Assembly: GCF_001552415.1 (NCBI RefSeq)
Contig: NZ_BCRD01000003.1
Span: forward strand, 124,001 to 188,000
Source of the DNA: Corynebacterium xerosis NBRC 16721 = ATCC 373
Lineage (GTDB): Bacteria; Actinomycetota; Actinomycetes; Mycobacteriales; Mycobacteriaceae
Direction: 5' to 3'
Length of the DNA: 64,000 bases
The notes beneath the pieces were generated by a model. The model was not told the DNA's origin and did no database searches. It worked only from the letters and a program-made list of their open reading frames with translations. Of this stretch, positions 7,691 through 50,997 are shown in pieces. How positions within the stretch are numbered: the stretch's first letter is position 1; every line of letters begins with the position of its first letter. The position numbers and the translations under genes are program-made.

Positions 7691-9238
7691 TCAGTTCTGC
7701 TCGGGCTTCACGATCGGGAACAGCACCGTCTCGCGGATGCCCAGGCCCGTGAACGCCATCAGCAGGCGATCGACGCCCATGCCGACGCCGGTGGTCGGGG
7801 GCATGCCCTGCTCCATGGCGTGGAGGAAGTCCTCGTCGAGGACCATCGCCTCGTCGTCGCCGCCGGCGGCCAGGCGGGCCTGGTCCTCGAAACGCTCGCG
7901 CTGGATCACCGGGTCGACCAGCTCCGAGTAGCCCGTGGCCAGCTCGAAGCCGCGGACGTAAAGGTCCCACTTCTCGGTGACGCCCGGCTTCGAGCGGTGC
8001 TGGCGGGTCAGCGGCGAGGTCTCGACCGGGAAGTCGCGGACGAAGACCGGGCCATCGAGCTGGTCCTCGCACAGCAGCTCCCAGATCTCCTCCACGAGCT
8101 TGCCGTGGCCCCAGCCGCCCTTGGCCGGCACGTCCAGGCCGATGACGTCGGCGATCGCCTTGAGCTCGTCGACCGTGGAGTCGACGGTGACCTCCGGCTG
8201 GCCGGGGAACTTGCGGGCCAGCGCCTCGTTGAGCGAGGGGTACATCTCCAGCTGCTTCCACTCGCCGCCGAAGTCGTACTCGGTGCCGTCGGCCAGCGTC
8301 ACCGTCGTCGAGCCGAACACGGCCACGGCGATTTCCTGGATGACCTCCTGCACGGTGCGCGCGGAATCGTCGTAGGTGCCGTAGGCGTCGTAGTACTCGA
8401 GCATGGCGAACTCCGGCGAGTGCGAGGAGTCGATGCCCTCGTTGCGGAAGTTGCGGTTGATCTCGAAGACCTTCTCCATGCCGCCGACGACGCAGCGCTT
8501 CAGGTACAGCTCCGGCGCGATGCGCAGGTACAGGTCCAGGTCCAGGGCATTGGAGTGCGTGACGAACGGGCGGGCCGCCGCGCCACCGTGGAGGGTCTGC
8601 AGCATCGGGGTCTCGACCTCGAGGAAGCCGCGGCGCTCCAGCGCGTGACGCAGCTCGCGGATGACCTTGATGCGGGTGATCGCGTTGTCGCGGGCCTCCG
8701 GGCGCATGATCAGGTCGGTGTAGCGGTGGCGGACGCGCTGGTCCTCGCTCATGTCGGAGTGCGCGAACGGCAGGGGGCGCAGCGACTTCGACGCCATGGT
8801 CCACTCGGTGGCCATGACGGACAGCTCGCCGCGGCGCGACGCGATGACGCGGCCGGTGATGATGACGAAGTCGCCCATGTCCACGTCGGCCTTCCAGGCG
8901 GCCAGCGCGTCCTCGCCGACCTCCTTCAGGCTGAGCATGGCCTGCAGCTGCGTGCCGTCGCCCTCCTGCAGCGTGGCGAAACACAGCTTGCCGGTGTTGC
9001 GCACGAAGATGACGCGGCCGACGACGGTGACGACGTCCTGCGTCTCCTCCCCCGCCTCCAGCTGCCACTGGCTGCGGACCTGCGCCAGCGTGTGCGTGCG
9101 CGGGACCTCGACCGGGTACGCCTCGCCGCCGTCGGCCAGCAGCTTCGCGCGCTTGTCGCGGCGGATGCGCAGCTGCTCCGGCAGGTCGGTGGTGGGCTTC
9201 TGGGCCTGGTTCGGGGCGGGGTTCTTCGCGTCAGTCAC
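7691..9238 (-). CDS. lysS: Lysyl-tRNA synthetase, class II
   Basis: Charges tRNA-Lys. At 515 residues it has the class IIb arrangement: an OB-fold anticodon-binding domain (about 60-180), then the catalytic domain with motif 1 near [10 protein letters not shown], motif 2 [16 protein letters not shown] near 265-280, and motif 3 [13 protein letters not shown] near the C-terminus. The GTG start at 9238 has GAGGA 4 bases upstream. It is monocistronic here. Confidence 0.96.
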
Positions 9239-34363: not shown

Positions 34364-34657
34364 ATGGAATTCATCCCGGTTTCAGAGGTTCCCGACGACG
34401 CCCAGATCATCGACGTCCGCTCGAAGATGGAGTGGGACGAGGGCCATCCCGTGGGCGCGGTGCACATCCCCATGGAGGAGATCCCCTCCCGCTACGGCGA
34501 GTTCGATTTCGATCGCGACATTTACCTCATGTGCAAGTCCGGCGGCCGGTCGGCGCAGGTGTGCCAGTGGCTGGAGATGAACGGCATCGACGCCATCAAC
34601 ATCTCCGGCGGCATGATCGACTGGGAGCACAACGGCCGTCCGATCGAAAAAGGCTGA
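34364..34657 (+). CDS. Single-domain rhodanese-like protein
   Basis: A 97-residue rhodanese domain. IIDVRSKMEWDEGHPVGAVH (N-terminal half) and the active-site loop MCKSGGRSAQV with the catalytic Cys near residue 57 are present, so sulfurtransferase activity is expected. It has no signal peptide. No ribosome-binding site precedes the ATG, consistent with a leaderless mRNA. No sulfur-metabolism gene is adjacent, so the partner is unknown. Confidence 0.9.
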   Translation: MEFIPVSEVPDDAQIIDVRSKMEWDEGHPVGAVHIPMEEIPSRYGEFDFDRDIYLMCKSGGRSAQVCQWLEMNGIDAINISGGMIDWEHNGRPIEKG

Positions 34658-34780: not shown

Positions 34781-34809
34781 AGCCCCCACCGCAGGATTCG
34801 GTGGGGGCT
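34781..34809 (+). terminator. Hairpin ahead of the marR-pls operon
   Basis: Perfect 11-base arms AGCCCCCACCG (34781-34791) and CGGTGGGGGCT (34799-34809) with a 7-base loop, followed by TCCCCATTATT. It probably ends the rhodanese transcript. Confidence 0.65.
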
Positions 34810-34818
34810 TCCCCATTA

Positions 34819-34846
34819 TTGGTGTAAATGCCAGTGTGCCTATGAT
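34819..34846 (+). promoter_or_regulatory. Promoter of marR-pls, leaderless layout
   Basis: TTGGTG (34819-34824), 16-base spacer, TATGAT (34841-34846), with the ATG at 34853 seven bases after the -10. A MarR-type autoregulator could bind this AT-rich 40-base stretch, but no clear long dyad is visible. Confidence 0.6.
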
Positions 34847-34852
34847 GGGTAC

Positions 34853-35416
34853 ATGCCAACGAAAGATTCTTCCCCGGCCCCGCGCCCGGAACCGACGCTG
34901 CCCGAGGCGGTGACGTCCTCGGCGACGTGGGTCGTCCAGCAGCTCGACGACCTGCTGCGCGACGCCGTCGACGACCTGCTCGACGAGCGTTCGCTGTCGC
35001 TGCGGGGTTACTGGCTGCTCGAGTCCATCGGCGCCGCCCCGGCCCACTCGCAGCGCGAGCTGTGCGATCTCCTCGGCGTCGATCGCTCCGACATGGTCCG
35101 CCTCGTCGACGTCCTCGAAGGCGCCGGTCTGGTCGAGCGCGTCCGCGACACCGAGGACCGCCGTCGCCAGCTGATCGGCCCGACTCCGGCCGGCGTGAGG
35201 CTGCGCGACGCGATCCGCGCCGACATCGCCACCGCCGAGGCCCGCGTTTTCGCCTCCGCCCCCGCGCCCATGCGGGAGGCCCTGTCCTCCGTGCTGAGCG
35301 CGAATCCTCCGGAGGACGGACAATCGCTTGACGACGATCCCGGCCGCACCGGCAAGGCGCCGAAGAAGTCGAAGAAGAAGCGGAAGAACAAGAAGAAGGG
35401 CGGCAAGCGTCAGTGA
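34853..35416 (+). CDS. MarR-family regulator with Lys-rich tail
   Basis: A 187-residue winged-helix regulator. Residues about 20-140 give the MarR fold (SLSLRGYWLLESIG, HSQRELCDLLGVDRSDMVRL recognition helix, wing RVRDTEDRRRQLIGPT). The C-terminus ends in a polybasic tail, KKSKKKRKNKKKGGKRQ, that could bind nucleic acid or anionic lipid. The stop overlaps the GTG of the Pls-type synthetase by 4 bases, so it is the probable regulator of that enzyme. The word GCTTGACGACG is in the sequence before the tail. Confidence 0.85.
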   Translation: MPTKDSSPAPRPEPTLPEAVTSSATWVVQQLDDLLRDAVDDLLDERSLSLRGYWLLESIGAAPAHSQRELCDLLGVDRSDMVRLVDVLEGAGLVERVRDTEDRRRQLIGPTPAGVRLRDAIRADIATAEARVFASAPAPMREALSSVLSANPPEDGQSLDDDPGRTGKAPKKSKKKRKNKKKGGKRQ

Positions 35417-38400
35417 CCGACATGGCTGATCCGATCGCGTCGTCGTACCTGCGCGGTGACCTGGCCGCGCCGGAGCGCACGCTCATGGACGTGCTGCGGT
35501 CCACCGCCGCCGAGCACCCCGAGGCGGCGGCGCTCGACGACGGCGACGTGGTGATGACCTATTCCGACCTCATCGCCGAAGTCGACGAGACCGCCCGCTG
35601 GCTCGGCGCCAAGGGCATCGGCGCCGGCGATCGCGTGGGCGTGCGCATGCCCTCGGGCAACCGGGAGCTCTACGTCGCCATCTTGTCGATCCTCGCCGCC
35701 GGCGCGGCCTACGTGCCCGTCGACGCCGACGACCCCGACGAGCGCGCCGAGATGGTCTTCGGCGAGGCCGGCATCGCCGGCTGGTTCGGCGCCGACGGCC
35801 TGCACCTGACTCCCGGCCACGTGGCGAAGGAACCGGCCCGCGAGCCGACCCCCGACGACGACGCGTGGATCATCTTCACCTCCGGATCGACGGGCAAGCC
35901 GAAGGGCGTGGCGGTCACCCACCGCAGCGCCGCCGCGTTCGTCGACGCCGAGTCGCGGCTGTTCCTGGCGAACCACCCCGACGGCCCGCTGGGCCCGGAG
36001 GACCGCGTGCTCGCCGGCCTGTCCGTCGCATTCGACGCCTCCTGCGAGGAGATGTGGATCGCGTGGGGGCACGGTTCCTGCCTGGTGCCCGCGCCGCGTT
36101 CGCTGGTGCGCTCCGGCATGGACCTGGGCCCGTGGCTGATCTCGCGCAGCATCACCGCGGTGTCCACGGTGCCGACGCTGGCGGGCCTGTGGCCGGCGGA
36201 GGCGTTGGATTCGGTGCGCTTGCTCATCGTCGGCGGCGAAGCCTGCCCGGCCGAGCTGGTCGAGCGCCTGTCCACCCCGGAACGCGAGGTGTGGAACACC
36301 TACGGCCCCACCGAGGCGACGGTCGTGGCCTGCGCCGCGGAGCTCAAGCCCGGCGAGCCGGTGACCATCGGCATGTCGCTGGACGGCTGGGATCTGGTGG
36401 TCGTGGACAAGGACGAAAAGCCCGTGGCGGCCGGCGAGGTCGGCGAGCTGGTCATCGGCGGCGTCGGACTGGCCCGATACCTGGACCCGGCGAAGGACGC
36501 CGAGAAGTACGCCCCCATGCCGACCATCGGCTGGGACCGCGCGTACCGCACCGGCGATCACGTGCGCCTGGAGCCGGAGGGCCTGCATTTCGTGGGCCGC
36601 GTCGACGATCAGGTGAAGATCGGCGGCCGCCGCATCGAGCTCGGCGAGGTCGAGGCGCACCTGGCCGCGCTGCCCGGGGTCACCCAGGCCTGCGTGCAGG
36701 TCCGCCAGACCGCCGGCGGCCAGGACATCCTGGTCGGTTACGTCGGCGCGGGCGGAGACGCCGCCAACGTCGACGCCGATGCCGCGATGGACCGCCTGCG
36801 CGCGGAGATGCCCGCCGCGATGGTCCCGCGCCTGCACGTCATGGACGAGCTGCCGGTGCGCACCTCCGGCAAGGTCGACAAGGCCGGGCTGCCCTGGCCG
36901 TTGCCGATCGACGCCGGCGCCGCCGACGATTCCGCCCTCGAGGGCCTGTCCCCCATCGAGGCGTGGTTGTCCGGCATTTGGGCGGAGGTCCTCGCCGTGC
37001 CCGCCCCGGGGGCGGCCGCTGATTTCTTCGCCCTGGGCGGCACGTCGCTGGCCGCGGCCACGGTCGTCGCGCGCATGCGCGAGCGCGCCCCGCACGTCGC
37101 GGTCCGCGATCTCTACGACCATCCGCGCCTGGGCAGGCTCGCCGAGGAACTGGAGTCGCGTGGGCTGTCGCTTGACGACGCTTCCGAGGACGAGGCCACC
37201 GCGAAGAAGAACAGGCGCGTCGTCAAGCCGGTCCCGCGCTCGACCCGCCACGCGCAGTCACTTGCCATGGTCCCGCTGCAGACGATCCGGGCGGCGAAGT
37301 GGATGACGTGGCTGGCGGTGCTCAATGCCATCGCCCATGGCCTGGGTTCGCCGTTCGCGCTGCCCGTGCCGTGGTGGCTGGCGGTGGTGCTGGCGCTGCT
37401 GTTCATCACGCCGCTGGGCACGCTGCCGCTGACGGCGCTGGCCACGCGCATGCTGATGCGCGGCGTCACGCCCGGTGATCACCCGCGCGGCGGCCGCGTC
37501 CACATGAAGCTGTGGGCCGCCGAACGCTTGGCCGACGCCTCCGGCGCGCGCGGCGTCGGCGGTGCGCCGTGGATGCTGTGGTTCGCCCGCGCGATGGGTG
37601 CGAAGGTGGGCAAGGGCGTGTCCCTGCACACGTTGCCGCCGGTCACTGGGTTCGTGGAGCTCGGCGACTACTGCTCCGTCGAACCGGAGACCGACATTTC
37701 CGGCTACTGGGTCGACGGCGACGTGGTGCACGTCGGGTCGATCACCATCGGCTCCGAGGCCCGCATCGGCGCGCGCTGCACGCTGATGCCCGGCACCGTG
37801 GTCGGCGACGGCGCCCACGTCGAGGCCGGTTCGTGCGTCACCGGAGTGAAGAAGGTCAAGGCCGGCGCCCGCTGGTCGGGCTCCCCCGCCCGGAAGGTCG
37901 GCCGCCCGAAGCGCCGCTTCCCGGTGGAGGCCCCGCCGCGCCGCCCGTACTGGCTGCCGGTCTACGGCGTCTCCGCGCTGGTGCTGGCGCTGGTGCCGGT
38001 GGCGGCGCTGGCGACGGCCGCCGCGATCATCGGGTTCGGCGCGGCCTCGGCGACGACCTGGCCCGGCGCCATCGGGCTGGCCCTGGCATGGACCGTCCCC
38101 GCCGCCATCGCCGCGGTCGCGGTGTACGCGCTGCTGACGCTGATCCTGGTGCGGTTGCTGTCCATCGGGCTCAAGGCCGGCGTCCATCCCGTCCGCTCGC
38201 GGGTGGGCTGGCAGGCATGGGCGACCGAGCGTCTGATGGACGCCGCCCGCACCGACCTGTTCCCGCTGTACGCCTCGCAGCTGACGCCGTGGTGGCTGCG
38301 GGCGCTGGGAGCGAAGGTCGGCCGCGACGCGGAGATCTCCACGGCCGTGGTGCTGCCGAAGTTCACCGACATCCGCGAGGGCTCCTTCCTCGCCGACGAC

Positions 38401-39396
38401 ACCATGGTCGGCGGCTACGAGCTCGGCGGCGGTTGGCTGCTGCTGGAAGAGACCCGCATCGGCCGCCGGTCCTTCCTGGGCAACTCCGGCATCGCCGGCC
38501 CCGGCCGCAAGCTGGGCAAAAACTCCCTGGTCGCGGTGCTGTCGTCGACGCCGAAGAAGGCGAAGGCCGGCTCGAACTGGTGGGGTTCCCCGCCGGAGCG
38601 CCTGCGCCGCGTGGCCGTCGAGGTCGACGGCGGCGAGGATCTGACCTATCGCCCGGGCGCCGGCGTGAAGGCCGCCCGCGGCGCGGTGGAGACGCTGCGC
38701 CTGCTGGCGCCGATCACCTCGCTGTTGCTGGCCGTGCTGGTCCTGCTGGCCATGCAGGGCGCGGCGGTGGGCGTCGTGACGCTTGCCGACGGCATGGTCG
38801 GCGTGGACGATGACGTTCTACTCGTGACCGTGCTCGGCCTGGCGGCGGCGTGGTTCGTCGGCTCGCCGGTGCTGCTGATCGCGGGCATGCTGGCGATGCT
38901 GATCACCGTGGCCATGAAGTGGATCTGCGTGGGCACGCACAAGAAGGGCGAGCACGCCCTGTGGAGCCGCTTCGTGTGGCTCGACGAGCTGCAGGACACC
39001 TTCGTCGAGACAGTCGCCGCGCCCTGGTACCTGGTGCCCGGCACCGGCACCGGCGGACTCAACCGGGCGATGCGCTGGCTCGGCGCCGACGTCGCCCACG
39101 GCGTGTGGCTCGAGTCCTACTGGCTGCCGGAGACGGACCTGATCCGCATCGGCGAAGGCGCCACCGTCGGCCGCGGCTGCGTGGTGCAGACGCACCTGTT
39201 CCAGGACCGCGTCATGAGCCTCGACACCGTCGAAATCGCCCCGGGCGCCACCCTCGGCCCCCACTCCGTGGCGCTGCCTGCTTCCCGCCTCGGCGAGTCG
39301 ACCACGATCGGCCCGGCGTCGCTGGTCATGCGCGGCGACGTCGTCCCCGCCGGCACCCGCTGGCAGGGCAACCCCATCGAGCCGATGAAGGAATAG
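35413..39396 (+). CDS. Pls/PosA-type non-ribosomal peptide synthetase with membrane domains
   Basis: A 1327-residue protein with the architecture of Streptomyces epsilon-poly-L-lysine synthetase (Pls, about 1320 residues): adenylation domain (about 1-510; FTSGSTGKPKGV, FDASCEEMW with the Asp that holds the amino group, NTYGPTEATV, GRVDDQVKIGGRRIELGE), a carrier domain with Ser545 in LGGTSL, then six or so membrane helices separating three related soluble segments with hexapeptide-repeat character (about 700-825, 900-1055, 1190-1325). There is no condensation or thioesterase domain. It should polymerise an amino acid at the membrane; which one cannot be read safely by eye. Expressed with the MarR regulator. 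Confidence 0.88.
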   Translation: MTDMADPIASSYLRGDLAAPERTLMDVLRSTAAEHPEAAALDDGDVVMTYSDLIAEVDETARWLGAKGIGAGDRVGVRMPSGNRELYVAILSILAAGAAYVPVDADDPDERAEMVFGEAGIAGWFGADGLHLTPGHVAKEPAREPTPDDDAWIIFTSGSTGKPKGVAVTHRSAAAFVDAESRLFLANHPDGPLGPEDRVLAGLSVAFDASCEEMWIAWGHGSCLVPAPRSLVRSGMDLGPWLISRSITAVSTVPTLAGLWPAEALDSVRLLIVGGEACPAELVERLSTPEREVWNTYGPTEATVVACAAELKPGEPVTIGMSLDGWDLVVVDKDEKPVAAGEVGELVIGGVGLARYLDPAKDAEKYAPMPTIGWDRAYRTGDHVRLEPEGLHFVGRVDDQVKIGGRRIELGEVEAHLAALPGVTQACVQVRQTAGGQDILVGYVGAGGDAANVDADAAMDRLRAEMPAAMVPRLHVMDELPVRTSGKVDKAGLPWPLPIDAGAADDSALEGLSPIEAWLSGIWAEVLAVPAPGAAADFFALGGTSLAAATVVARMRERAPHVAVRDLYDHPRLGRLAEELESRGLSLDDASEDEATAKKNRRVVKPVPRSTRHAQSLAMVPLQTIRAAKWMTWLAVLNAIAHGLGSPFALPVPWWLAVVLALLFITPLGTLPLTALATRMLMRGVTPGDHPRGGRVHMKLWAAERLADASGARGVGGAPWMLWFARAMGAKVGKGVSLHTLPPVTGFVELGDYCSVEPETDISGYWVDGDVVHVGSITIGSEARIGARCTLMPGTVVGDGAHVEAGSCVTGVKKVKAGARWSGSPARKVGRPKRRFPVEAPPRRPYWLPVYGVSALVLALVPVAALATAAAIIGFGAASATTWPGAIGLALAWTVPAAIAAVAVYALLTLILVRLLSIGLKAGVHPVRSRVGWQAWATERLMDAARTDLFPLYASQLTPWWLRALGAKVGRDAEISTAVVLPKFTDIREGSFLADDTMVGGYELGGGWLLLEETRIGRRSFLGNSGIAGPGRKLGKNSLVAVLSSTPKKAKAGSNWWGSPPERLRRVAVEVDGGEDLTYRPGAGVKAARGAVETLRLLAPITSLLLAVLVLLAMQGAAVGVVTLADGMVGVDDDVLLVTVLGLAAAWFVGSPVLLIAGMLAMLITVAMKWICVGTHKKGEHALWSRFVWLDELQDTFVETVAAPWYLVPGTGTGGLNRAMRWLGADVAHGVWLESYWLPETDLIRIGEGATVGRGCVVQTHLFQDRVMSLDTVEIAPGATLGPHSVALPASRLGESTTIGPASLVMRGDVVPAGTRWQGNPIEPMKE

Positions 39397-39497: not shown

Positions 39498-40397
39498 CTA
39501 GTCGCCGATCTGATCGCGACCGCGCAGCACGATCTTCGGATCCGGCTCGCCGACGAGCTCATGATCCTTGTTCGTGTACTCGAACTTCGACAGCACATAG
39601 CGGATCGCGTTGATGCGGGCCCGCTTCTTGTCGTTGGACTTGATGGTGATCCACGGCGACTCGTCGGTGTCCGTGTAGCGGAACTGCTCCTCCTTGGCGC
39701 GGGTGTAATCGTCCCAACGGTCCAGCGAAGCGAGGTCCATCGGCGACAGCTTCCACTGGCGCACCGGGTCGACCTGGCGGATGGCGAAGCGGGTGCGCTG
39801 CTCCTTCTGCGTCACCGAGAACCACAGCTTGGTCACCGAAATGCCCGAACCGAGCAGCATGTTCTCCAGCATCGGCACCTCGCGCAGGAACTCCGCGTGC
39901 TGGGACTCCGTGCAGAAGCCCATCACGCGCTCCACGCCCGAGCGGTTGTACCAGGAGCGGTCGAAGAACACGATCTCGCCCGCCGACGGGAAGTGCTGGA
40001 TGTAGCGCTGAAAGTACCACGACGTCGACTCGCGCGGCGACGGCTTCTCCAGCGCCACGGTGCGCGCGCCACGGGGATTGAGGTGCTCGTTGAAGCGCTT
40101 GATTGTGCCGCCCTTGCCGGCGGCGTCGCGGCCCTCGAAGAGGATGATGTGCTTCTGGCCGGTTTCCTTGGTCCAGTTCTGCCACTTCAGCAGCTCGATC
40201 TGGAGGGCGCGCTTGGTCTTCTCGTACTCCTTGCGCGTCATGCGCTCCTCGTACGGGTAGTTCTCGCGCCACGTCTCCACCGGATCGCCGGACGGGGTGA
40301 CCAGCACCGGATCGTCCTCGTCGGAGTCGTCCACGACGTACCCCTCGGTCGCCGCCAGATCGACGATGTGGAAGTCCTCTTCGTTCGTGTCAGCCAT
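39498..40397 (-). CDS. ppk2: Polyphosphate kinase 2
   Basis: PPK2-family P-loop kinase of 299 residues that exchanges phosphate between polyphosphate and nucleotides. Walker A is FEGRDAAGKGG (about 87-97), Walker B FFDRSWYNRSGVERVMGF (about 143-160), and the lid module IRQVDPVRQWKLSPMD is present. The protein has an acidic N-terminus. A single PPK2 domain of this kind usually favours ADP/GDP phosphorylation by polyP. It faces the Pls-type gene convergently. Confidence 0.94.
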   Translation of the reverse strand: MADTNEEDFHIVDLAATEGYVVDDSDEDDPVLVTPSGDPVETWRENYPYEERMTRKEYEKTKRALQIELLKWQNWTKETGQKHIILFEGRDAAGKGGTIKRFNEHLNPRGARTVALEKPSPRESTSWYFQRYIQHFPSAGEIVFFDRSWYNRSGVERVMGFCTESQHAEFLREVPMLENMLLGSGISVTKLWFSVTQKEQRTRFAIRQVDPVRQWKLSPMDLASLDRWDDYTRAKEEQFRYTDTDESPWITIKSNDKKRARINAIRYVLSKFEYTNKDHELVGEPDPKIVLRGRDQIGD

Positions 40398-48609: not shown

Positions 48610-50287
48610 GCAACTGATTCTCTTCCTCATCCCCATGCCGGTGCTCATCCCGGCGGTCACCGCGGGCCTGGCGCTGCTGTTCTCGCGGCGCCCGCGCGTG
48701 CAGCAGGTACTGAGCATGGCCGCGCTGATCGTGCTGCTGATCCTGTCGGTGTGGCTGGTGTACCTGGTGCAGGACAACGGCATCCACACGGTCCAGGTGG
48801 GCGGCTGGAATTCGCCGATCGGCATCACGCTCGTCGCCGATGGCTTGTCGACGATCATGATCGCAGTCTCCCAACTCGTGCTCTTCGCCGTCCACTGGTT
48901 CGGCATCGGGCAGGGCATCCGCGACGGCGACGACGACGACCCGATCTCCGTGTTCGTGCCGACGTACATGCTGCTGAACATGGGCGTGTCCATGGCCTTC
49001 CTGGCCGGCGACCTGTTCAACATGTACGTGGGTTTCGAGGTGCTGCTGCTGGCCTCCTACGTGCTGCTGACGCTGGGCGCCTCGGCGTCGCGCATCCGCG
49101 CGGGCGTGAGCTACGTGATGGTCAACCTGCTGTCGTCGATGGTGTTCCTCATGGCCATCGGCTTCGTCTACGCGTCGGTGGGCACCGTCAACTTCGCGCA
49201 CGTGTCCATCCGCATGGAGGAGCTGCCGTCGGGCACCCGCACCGCGATCTTCGCCGTGCTGCTCGTCGCGTTCTCCGTGAAGGCGGCCGTGTTCCCGCTG
49301 TCGTCGTGGCTGCCGGACTCCTACCCCACCGCCCCGTCGATGGTCACCGCCGTGTTCGCGGGCCTGCTGACGAAGGTCGGCGTGTACGCCATCATCCGCT
49401 CGCGGTCGGTGATGTTCCCCGACGGCGCGCTGGACGAAGTGCTCATGTGGGCCGGCCTGGCCACCATGATCATGGGCATCCTCGGCGCCATGGCCCAGAA
49501 CGACATCAAACGATTGCTGTCGTTCACCCTGGTGTCGCACATCGGATACATGATCTTCGGCATCGCCCTGGGCAACGAGCTCGGGCTGTCCGGCGCGATC
49601 TTCTACATGGTCCACCACATTCTGGTGCAGACCGCGCTGTTCCTGGTGGTCGGGCTGATCGAGCGCCAGGCCGGATCGTCGTCGCTGCGCAGACTGGGCG
49701 GACTGGCCAAGGCCTCTCCCCTGCTGGCGCTGCTGTACCTGGTGCCCGCGCTGAACCTGGGCGGCATCCCGCCGTTCTCAGGGTTCCTGGGCAAGATCAT
49801 GCTCATCGAGGCCGGCGCGCAGTCCGGCACCCTCACCGCGTGGGTGCTCGTCGGCGGCGCCGTGGTCACCTCGCTGCTGACCCTGTACACCATGGTCATC
49901 GTGTGGTCGAAGGCGTTCTGGCGCGACCGCTCCGACGCCCCCGAGGGCGACACCGCCCTGGCGCGCGTCTCGCCGCTGCGCGAGGACACCCGCGTCGTGT
50001 CGCTCGAGGAGCGCGAGGACGTCGGCCGCATGCCCTTCGGCATGGTCGCCCCGACGGTCTTCCTCGTCGCCGCGTCCGTCGCCGTCACGGTGCTCGCCGG
50101 CCCGTTGTCCATCGTCTCCGACCGCGCCGCCGCCAACGTCTCCGACGTCGCCGGCTACCGCGCGGCCGTGCTCGGCGTGCGCAACGCCGACGACCAGAGC
50201 GGGCTGCCCGACCCGGGGCGCACGCTCAACCCCGCCGACGACCCCAGCGCCGGCGGCGACTCCGTCGAACGGGAGGAGGAACGATGA
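48599..50287 (+). CDS. mrpD: Na+/H+ antiporter subunit MrpD
   Basis: NuoM/N-like channel subunit, 562 residues and about 14 helices. Conserved parts include DLFNMYVGFEVLLLASYVLL (channel Glu), FSVKAAVFPLSSWLPDSYPT (channel Lys), FAGLLTKVGVYAIIR, RLLSFTLVSHIGYMIFG and LNLGGIPPFSGFLGKIML. A C-terminal charged tail of about 55 residues follows the last helix. GTG 48599 lies 11 bases inside mrpC. Confidence 0.95.
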   Translation: MTTEQLILFLIPMPVLIPAVTAGLALLFSRRPRVQQVLSMAALIVLLILSVWLVYLVQDNGIHTVQVGGWNSPIGITLVADGLSTIMIAVSQLVLFAVHWFGIGQGIRDGDDDDPISVFVPTYMLLNMGVSMAFLAGDLFNMYVGFEVLLLASYVLLTLGASASRIRAGVSYVMVNLLSSMVFLMAIGFVYASVGTVNFAHVSIRMEELPSGTRTAIFAVLLVAFSVKAAVFPLSSWLPDSYPTAPSMVTAVFAGLLTKVGVYAIIRSRSVMFPDGALDEVLMWAGLATMIMGILGAMAQNDIKRLLSFTLVSHIGYMIFGIALGNELGLSGAIFYMVHHILVQTALFLVVGLIERQAGSSSLRRLGGLAKASPLLALLYLVPALNLGGIPPFSGFLGKIMLIEAGAQSGTLTAWVLVGGAVVTSLLTLYTMVIVWSKAFWRDRSDAPEGDTALARVSPLREDTRVVSLEEREDVGRMPFGMVAPTVFLVAASVAVTVLAGPLSIVSDRAAANVSDVAGYRAAVLGVRNADDQSGLPDPGRTLNPADDPSAGGDSVEREEER

Positions 50288-50997
50288 ACCCGGACAAGAA
50301 CCACGCGGGCGTCGCAAAGCCCGACAAGCGCGAGGAACGCCGCAAGAGCCGGCCCTCGTTCATCCTCTTCCTGTGGATCGTGGTCATGTGGCAGCTCCTG
50401 TGGGGCGAGGTCACCTGGGCCAACATCTTCGGCGGCATCGGCGTCGGACTGCTGATCTCGATCTTCGTGCCCATGCCGCGCGTGCCCGTCAGCGACATCG
50501 ACGTCCACTGGCCGTCGATGATCAAGCTGTTCGCCACGTTCTTCGTCGACTTCATCGTCGCGTCGTTCACCGTCGCGTGGCTTGCCGTCCGCCGCCAGGA
50601 CCCGCCGCCCAGCGCCGTGGTCGAGATCCCCATGCGCACCCGCGACGACCTGTCGCTCGCGTCGGCGATCGCCCTGATCAACCTGCAGCCCGGTGGCCTG
50701 GCCATCGACATCGACAACCGCCGCAAGACCGTCACCATGCACCTGCTCGACGGCTCGTCGACCGGGCGCATCGACAAGACCATCCGCCAGCTCGGGCGCC
50801 TGGAGTGGCAGGTGATCCGGGCCTTCGAAAGCCGCGACATCCACGAGGAGGACGCGGCCGCCGCCGTGCCCCTCGGCCACGACCACGCGGACGTGCAGGA
50901 CGATGTGGCGGCGGATGCGCAGGCCGATGTTCAGGCCGATTCACGAGCCGACGCGCACACCGAGGCCGGCACCCCCGACGTCCGGAAGGAGGACTGA
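50284..50997 (+). CDS. mrpE: Na+/H+ antiporter subunit MrpE
   Basis: MrpE/MnhE subunit, 237 residues. A basic N-terminal stretch is followed by two close membrane helices (about 25-60) and a third near 75-98, then the soluble domain with the conserved ALINLQPGGLAIDID and the C-terminal GRIDKTIRQLGRLEWQVIRAF. The last 55 residues are His/Asp/Ala-rich and unusual for the family; metal binding is conceivable. CGTCGCAAAGC (50310) falls in the N-terminal codons. Confidence 0.93.
   Translation: MNPDKNHAGVAKPDKREERRKSRPSFILFLWIVVMWQLLWGEVTWANIFGGIGVGLLISIFVPMPRVPVSDIDVHWPSMIKLFATFFVDFIVASFTVAWLAVRRQDPPPSAVVEIPMRTRDDLSLASAIALINLQPGGLAIDIDNRRKTVTMHLLDGSSTGRIDKTIRQLGRLEWQVIRAFESRDIHEEDAAAAVPLGHDHADVQDDVAADAQADVQADSRADAHTEAGTPDVRKED

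Follow-up and report, generated by a model that had tools for sequence, protein, structure and literature searches.

A predicted MarR-controlled epsilon-poly-L-lysine operon in Corynebacterium xerosis and a PldII-like peptidase that co-occurs with its synthetase

The window, a stretch of 64,000 nucleotides from Corynebacterium xerosis NBRC 16721, contains an overlapping marR-pls gene pair that is best explained, with good confidence, as a MarR-controlled epsilon-poly-L-lysine operon of Corynebacterium. Judged by its sequence, the locus encodes an enzyme of an established class whose likely product is known, and what is added here is the regulatory arrangement together with a tie between pls and an unlinked peptidase gene; no paper describing the marR-pls operator arrangement or this tie was found in a search that covered few subscription papers. 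The protein family, the domain order, the pocket identity, the conservation of the operator and the co-occurrence with the peptidase were computed directly.

From these we infer a pathway in which Pls would activate L-lysine with ATP and load it on Ser545, after which three membrane-anchored beta-helix C domains would extend a lysine isopeptide chain that would then be exported. MarR, translated from the same mRNA, would bind an inverted repeat at the marR promoter and hold the operon low until some signal releases it, and the translation of pls would be coupled to that of marR through their overlap. An unlinked PldII-like M1 peptidase may trim the polymer for self-protection, a function that has been suggested for the Streptomyces gene coupled to pls.

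The Pls synthetase

The pls gene (35413..39396, + strand) encodes a 1327-aa homologue of epsilon-poly-L-lysine synthetase and starts with GTG, sharing the tetranucleotide GTGA with the TGA stop of marR in a 4 nt overlap. The protein scored 738.6 bits over residues 614-1322 against the NCBIfam model TIGR02353 ('Pls/PosA family NRPS'), whose curated cut-off is 423.1. Pfam placed AMP-binding at residues 29-355 and AMP-binding_C at 412-487, which mark the adenylation (A) domain (35464..36891, + strand), followed by PP-binding at 518-579 and Hexapep at 777-811. The carrier (T/PCP) domain (36964..37149, + strand; PP-binding, 3.8e-11) bears the phosphopantetheine serine as residue 545 in a GGTS motif, and neither condensation nor thioesterase models were among the Pfam matches of the protein.

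The C-terminal Pls/PosA region (37252..39378, + strand), delimited by TIGR02353, by modelling and by fold search, is composed of three units, each with a transmembrane hairpin and an acyltransferase-like beta-helix. Residues 598-1327 were modelled with AlphaFold from a 26-sequence alignment (pLDDT 79.7, pTM 0.84); in this model six transmembrane helices form three pairs with a soluble domain after each pair, and all three membrane-separated domains are of the left-handed-beta-helix type. The closest PDB folds to the modelled part were hexapeptide acetyltransferases, namely galactoside and serine acetyltransferases, in agreement with the published description of Pls C domains as acetyltransferase-related (PMC8117764). 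The overall layout is thus that of the family, A-T-(TM pair + C domain) x3 with six transmembrane helices and without canonical C or TE domains. The preliminary description, made from the letters and translations, had read a 1327-residue protein with an adenylation domain, a carrier at Ser545 and three membrane-separated soluble domains, devoid of condensation and thioesterase domains, and Pfam, NCBIfam and the AlphaFold model bear this out; its assignment of a Pls-type isopeptide homopolymer synthetase is likewise supported by TIGR02353, the domain order and the pocket.

Adenylation pocket and predicted product

The best solved relative of the A domain is 7WEW, the A domain of the Streptomyces albulus epsilon-poly-L-lysine synthetase (E 1e-187, 63.9% identity), which comes from an enzyme of the same domain order. 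The window pocket, DAESIGTVVK, equals that of 7WEW at 10/10 specificity positions, and mapping of these ten positions in 170 aligned pls-type proteins showed it to be invariant in all 170 Mycobacteriales homologues. Coryneform Pls pockets have been reported as identical or highly similar to that of Pls, and the C. variabile Pls, which shares genus, family and architecture with the window protein, produced epsilon-poly-lysine of 26-35 residues when expressed in S. coelicolor (PMC8117764). Because the pocket is identical to that of S. albulus Pls and the C. variabile homologue makes epsilon-poly-lysine, the product of the window Pls is probably, and most simply, epsilon-poly-L-lysine, a known antimicrobial polymer.

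A polymer built from a different diamino acid (ornithine, diaminobutyrate, diaminopropionate or beta-lysine) would be new for corynebacteria and is very unlikely. Such polymers are produced within the Pls/PosA family (PMC10522769) and pocket codes predict a substrate only statistically, but the complete identity to the Pls pocket speaks against this, as does the co-occurrence of pls with a peptidase that is coupled elsewhere to lysine-type pls. The ornithine-polymerizing PosA of Acinetobacter baumannii, a delta-poly-L-ornithine synthetase, belongs to the same TIGR02353 family with a different pocket, DMEHNGTVSK (PMC10522769), in which Met takes the second place where the window Pls has Ala. 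This is the chain-length position, occupied by Met in PosA and by Phe in the PDAP/PDAB synthetases, and replacement of Met218 by Ala in PosA raised the use of lysine nearly ten-fold; the C-terminal part of PosA shares only 20% identity with S. albulus Pls (PMC10522769). The polymer had been called unidentified in the preliminary description, which proposed an adenylation-pocket prediction; that prediction returned the lysine code DAESIGTVVK and hence a known polymer, and with the C. variabile precedent and the peptidase homologue in the genome it does not support an unidentified polymer.

Distribution and locus arrangements

TIGR02353 was found above its cut-off in 136 of the 151 genomes sampled across the family (31 genera) and in 152 of the 201 genomes of the genus. 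In print, pls is carried by 10/12 cheese or skin Corynebacterium isolates; the gene has been found in many corynebacteria, yet no polymer was detectable from C. variabile itself, nor from C. glutamicum expressing the C. variabile gene, for which a regulatory trigger, so far unknown, has been suggested (PMC8117764). The absence of free polymer from these two species, the near-universal presence in the family and the embedding of Corynebacterium pls in a conserved block that includes dacB, ppa and rhodanese genes would also suit a housekeeping envelope role, with short lysine oligomers or envelope lysinylation in place of a free secreted polymer. This alternative is considered unlikely, as the C. 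variabile enzyme made 26-35-mers in S. coelicolor (PMC8117764) and the Pls domain order is unchanged.

The arrangement of the locus differs between lineages. In about 50 of ~73 non-Corynebacterium loci an M1-family peptidase gene lies directly 3' of pls, often with a 4 nt overlap, which fits the pls-pldII arrangement of Streptomyces. In 69 of the 80 other Corynebacterium loci read, marR lies next to pls and has the same orientation, so the window locus, of the marR-pls type, shows the usual arrangement of the genus: its pls appears coupled to the upstream marR and its peptidase homologue is unlinked, whereas pls of S. albulus and other Streptomyces is coupled to pldII and that of C. variabile stands in an operon with a peptidase. 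Five Corynebacterium loci (L172, L182-L185), which form a separate branch in the tree, carry pls followed by the M1 peptidase without marR beside pls, and they look like the operon published for C. variabile. The position of S. albulus in the tree, represented by its A domain only, is unreliable. Among the loci read, only L049 of Antrihabitans cavernicola combined an adjacent upstream marR with a downstream M1 peptidase.

The unlinked PldII-like peptidase

No PldII-type peptidase is adjacent to the window pls, an adjacency that is typical context for the family and no requirement for membership. The genome has one clear M1 peptidase relative outside the window, unlinked to pls, at G000:C4:170295-171659 (L210:4293-5660, - strand), which is 46% identical to a pls-coupled Mycolicibacterium enzyme. 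Other Mycobacteriales, like the C. variabile-type loci, have M1 homologues coupled to pls, and the gene found here is designated PldII-like by its homology to such pls-coupled genes rather than to the S. albulus PldII sequence.

The peptidase was present in 145 of 146 full-score pls-positive genomes of the genus against 1 of 47 pls-negative ones, a count over 201 genomes from which eight with intermediate TIGR02353 scores (three with and five without the peptidase) were set aside; both exceptions to the pairing, G238 and G224, are 77% complete. At the family level it accompanied pls in 136/136 pls-positive genomes against 1/15 pls-negative ones. The corresponding p-values, 3e-42 and 8e-19, ignore shared ancestry and are not to be read literally. 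The tie also holds where the two genes are unlinked, and the co-occurrence supports a common pathway, which in turn supports the lysine assignment.

G026 was the only sampled family genome with a PldII-like peptidase and without pls above the cut-off. Five genomes with intermediate TIGR02353 scores and without the peptidase (G153, G179, G303, G245 and G316) possibly encode synthetases for other substrates.

The MarR regulator and its predicted operator

The upstream gene (34853..35416, + strand) encodes a winged-helix regulator of 187 aa (Pfam MarR_2, 9.7e-13), with a MarR winged-helix domain scoring 48.5 bits for PF12802 against a cut-off of 27, while all named MarR models of NCBIfam fell far below their cut-offs. 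It shares with MarR-type local autoregulators the winged helix, invariant residues such as D77, S79, D80 and D102-R105, and, by prediction, an inverted-repeat site covering the promoter of its gene; it differs from them in a Lys-rich tail confined to one clade and in lacking a match near the cut-off of any named NCBIfam model. The regulator gene was found as described, and its arrangement with pls is operon-like.

The predicted MarR operator, the inverted repeat TTCGGTGGG-GGCTTC-CCCATTATT (34797..34820, no strand assigned), has three mismatches to AATNRTGGG-N6-CCCAYNATT and is the only match to this motif in the window, where the mean by chance is 0.23. With up to four mismatches the motif occurred in 49 of 71 marR-pls loci as against 22 of 1329 random regions of those loci, figures that describe conservation and are no independent test, as the motif was derived from the marR-pls loci themselves. 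The window locus lies outside the 49, its scan having begun from an over-long ORF. Nine genomes, picked among those with good sites, were scanned whole, and each had a single site with at most one mismatch, located at marR-pls; the genome of the window has seven further sites with at most three mismatches. The conserved palindrome over the promoter of marR is accordingly predicted as a site for MarR itself. The -10-like hexamer TATGAT (34841..34846, + strand), a weak candidate placed 6 nt 5' of the marR ATG with similar spacing in tail-clade relatives, suggests a leaderless-type marR transcript; a sigma-70 scan of the + strand upstream of marR returned no site.

Membership of the peptidase in the MarR regulon was rejected, as its region has no operator with three or fewer mismatches.

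With a predicted one-site MarR switch before pls and a hydrolase homologue that tracks pls across genomes, the silence of corynebacterial pls becomes directly testable, and a membrane-active polymer may prove to be common among actinobacteria of skin, cheese and soil. A broader reading, rated well below even chance, is that lysine-type pls and the PldII-like peptidase are an inherited pair, kept or lost jointly though unlinked, in Corynebacterium and most Mycobacteriales; epsilon-poly-lysine would then be a common conserved product of mycolic-acid bacteria and not a rare antibiotic, and its silence in Corynebacterium would be explained by a single-operator MarR switch.

The Lys-rich tail of MarR

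The last 17 codons of marR (35363..35413, + strand) encode the Lys/Arg-rich tail KKSKKKRKNKKKGGKRQ, in which 12 residues are basic, so the 17-residue polybasic tail reported earlier is real. A Shine-Dalgarno-like sequence for pls, AAGAAGGG (35393..35400, + strand), appears to be embedded in the tail codons, and every tail-bearing locus has AAGAAGGG ahead of its pls start. Among marR-pls loci the tail is restricted to one Corynebacterium clade, comprising seven other genomes besides the window and C. halotolerans, and it is missing in the sister, earliest-branching L174; no marR was found in L157, which belongs to the tail clade. Since the tail is conserved among tail-clade MarR proteins while the linker differs in length and sequence, the tail is probably functional.

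The proposal that the tail senses the charge of polymer, membrane or polyphosphate, or that its Lys codons sense lysine supply in coupling to pls translation, concerns the regulator only and is compatible with a MarR-controlled epsilon-poly-L-lysine operon. It would draw on the retention of the tail beside a variable linker in all marR-bearing tail-clade relatives except L174 and on the Lys run directly 5' of the overlapping pls start, the abutment for which an attenuator was considered. It is nevertheless quite unlikely: the majority of marR-pls pairs have a MarR without the tail, pls-less genomes also have MarR orthologues with Lys-rich tails, and some relatives have additional Lys-rich N-termini distant from the pls start, which point to protein charge, for instance as a DNA anchor. 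Both the lysine attenuator and the polymer sensor were set aside on the tail-less majority and the tailed pls-less orthologues, and the earlier suggestion of a polymer sensor does not hold as a general feature. A role in DNA contact is a modest guess. The tails of the MarR orthologues of L218 and L221, loci of genomes without pls, are rich in Lys, Gly and Ser (GKSGKSGKSGKSK and SKSGSKSKSKSK).

Genomic neighbourhood and pls-less genomes

The rhodanese-like gene upstream of marR (34364..34657, + strand) is a conserved neighbour in 68 of 80 Corynebacterium loci, and ppk2, convergent with pls (39498..40397, - strand), is nearby in 57 of 80. Orthologues of marR were found in 14 of 20 genomes without pls and in each of the five peptidase-type genomes examined; in the pls-less genomes they lie mostly within the same rhodanese-marR-ppk2-groEL block, and in the L172 and L182-L185-type genomes marR stands elsewhere, without pls. 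By gene order, then, pls appears to have been lost from a standing block. The persistence of marR in these 14 genomes weakens the idea of a regulator exclusive to pls, and MarR may therefore have a wider or different role beyond the control of pls.

The preliminary description had also suggested that ppk2 and the nearby Mrp antiporter would bear on polyanion and ion balance. The ppk2 gene is kept beside marR also where pls is absent, so its presence reflects synteny background and was rejected as evidence of a functional partnership; in S. albulus, PPK2B of C. glutamicum raised the titre of epsilon-poly-lysine (PMC10012588).

In G149, which was scored pls-negative, a decayed Pls A domain follows marR (L230:3915-6418), with the pocket, the ATP-binding core and the C-terminal region lost. 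Elsewhere in the window, an ORF beyond groEL (48751-50997, + strand) contains an Mnh/Mrp-type antiporter subunit E domain, and a gene at 7691-9238 (- strand), ~26 kb upstream of pls, encodes a D/K/N-group class II aminoacyl-tRNA synthetase and may be lysS.
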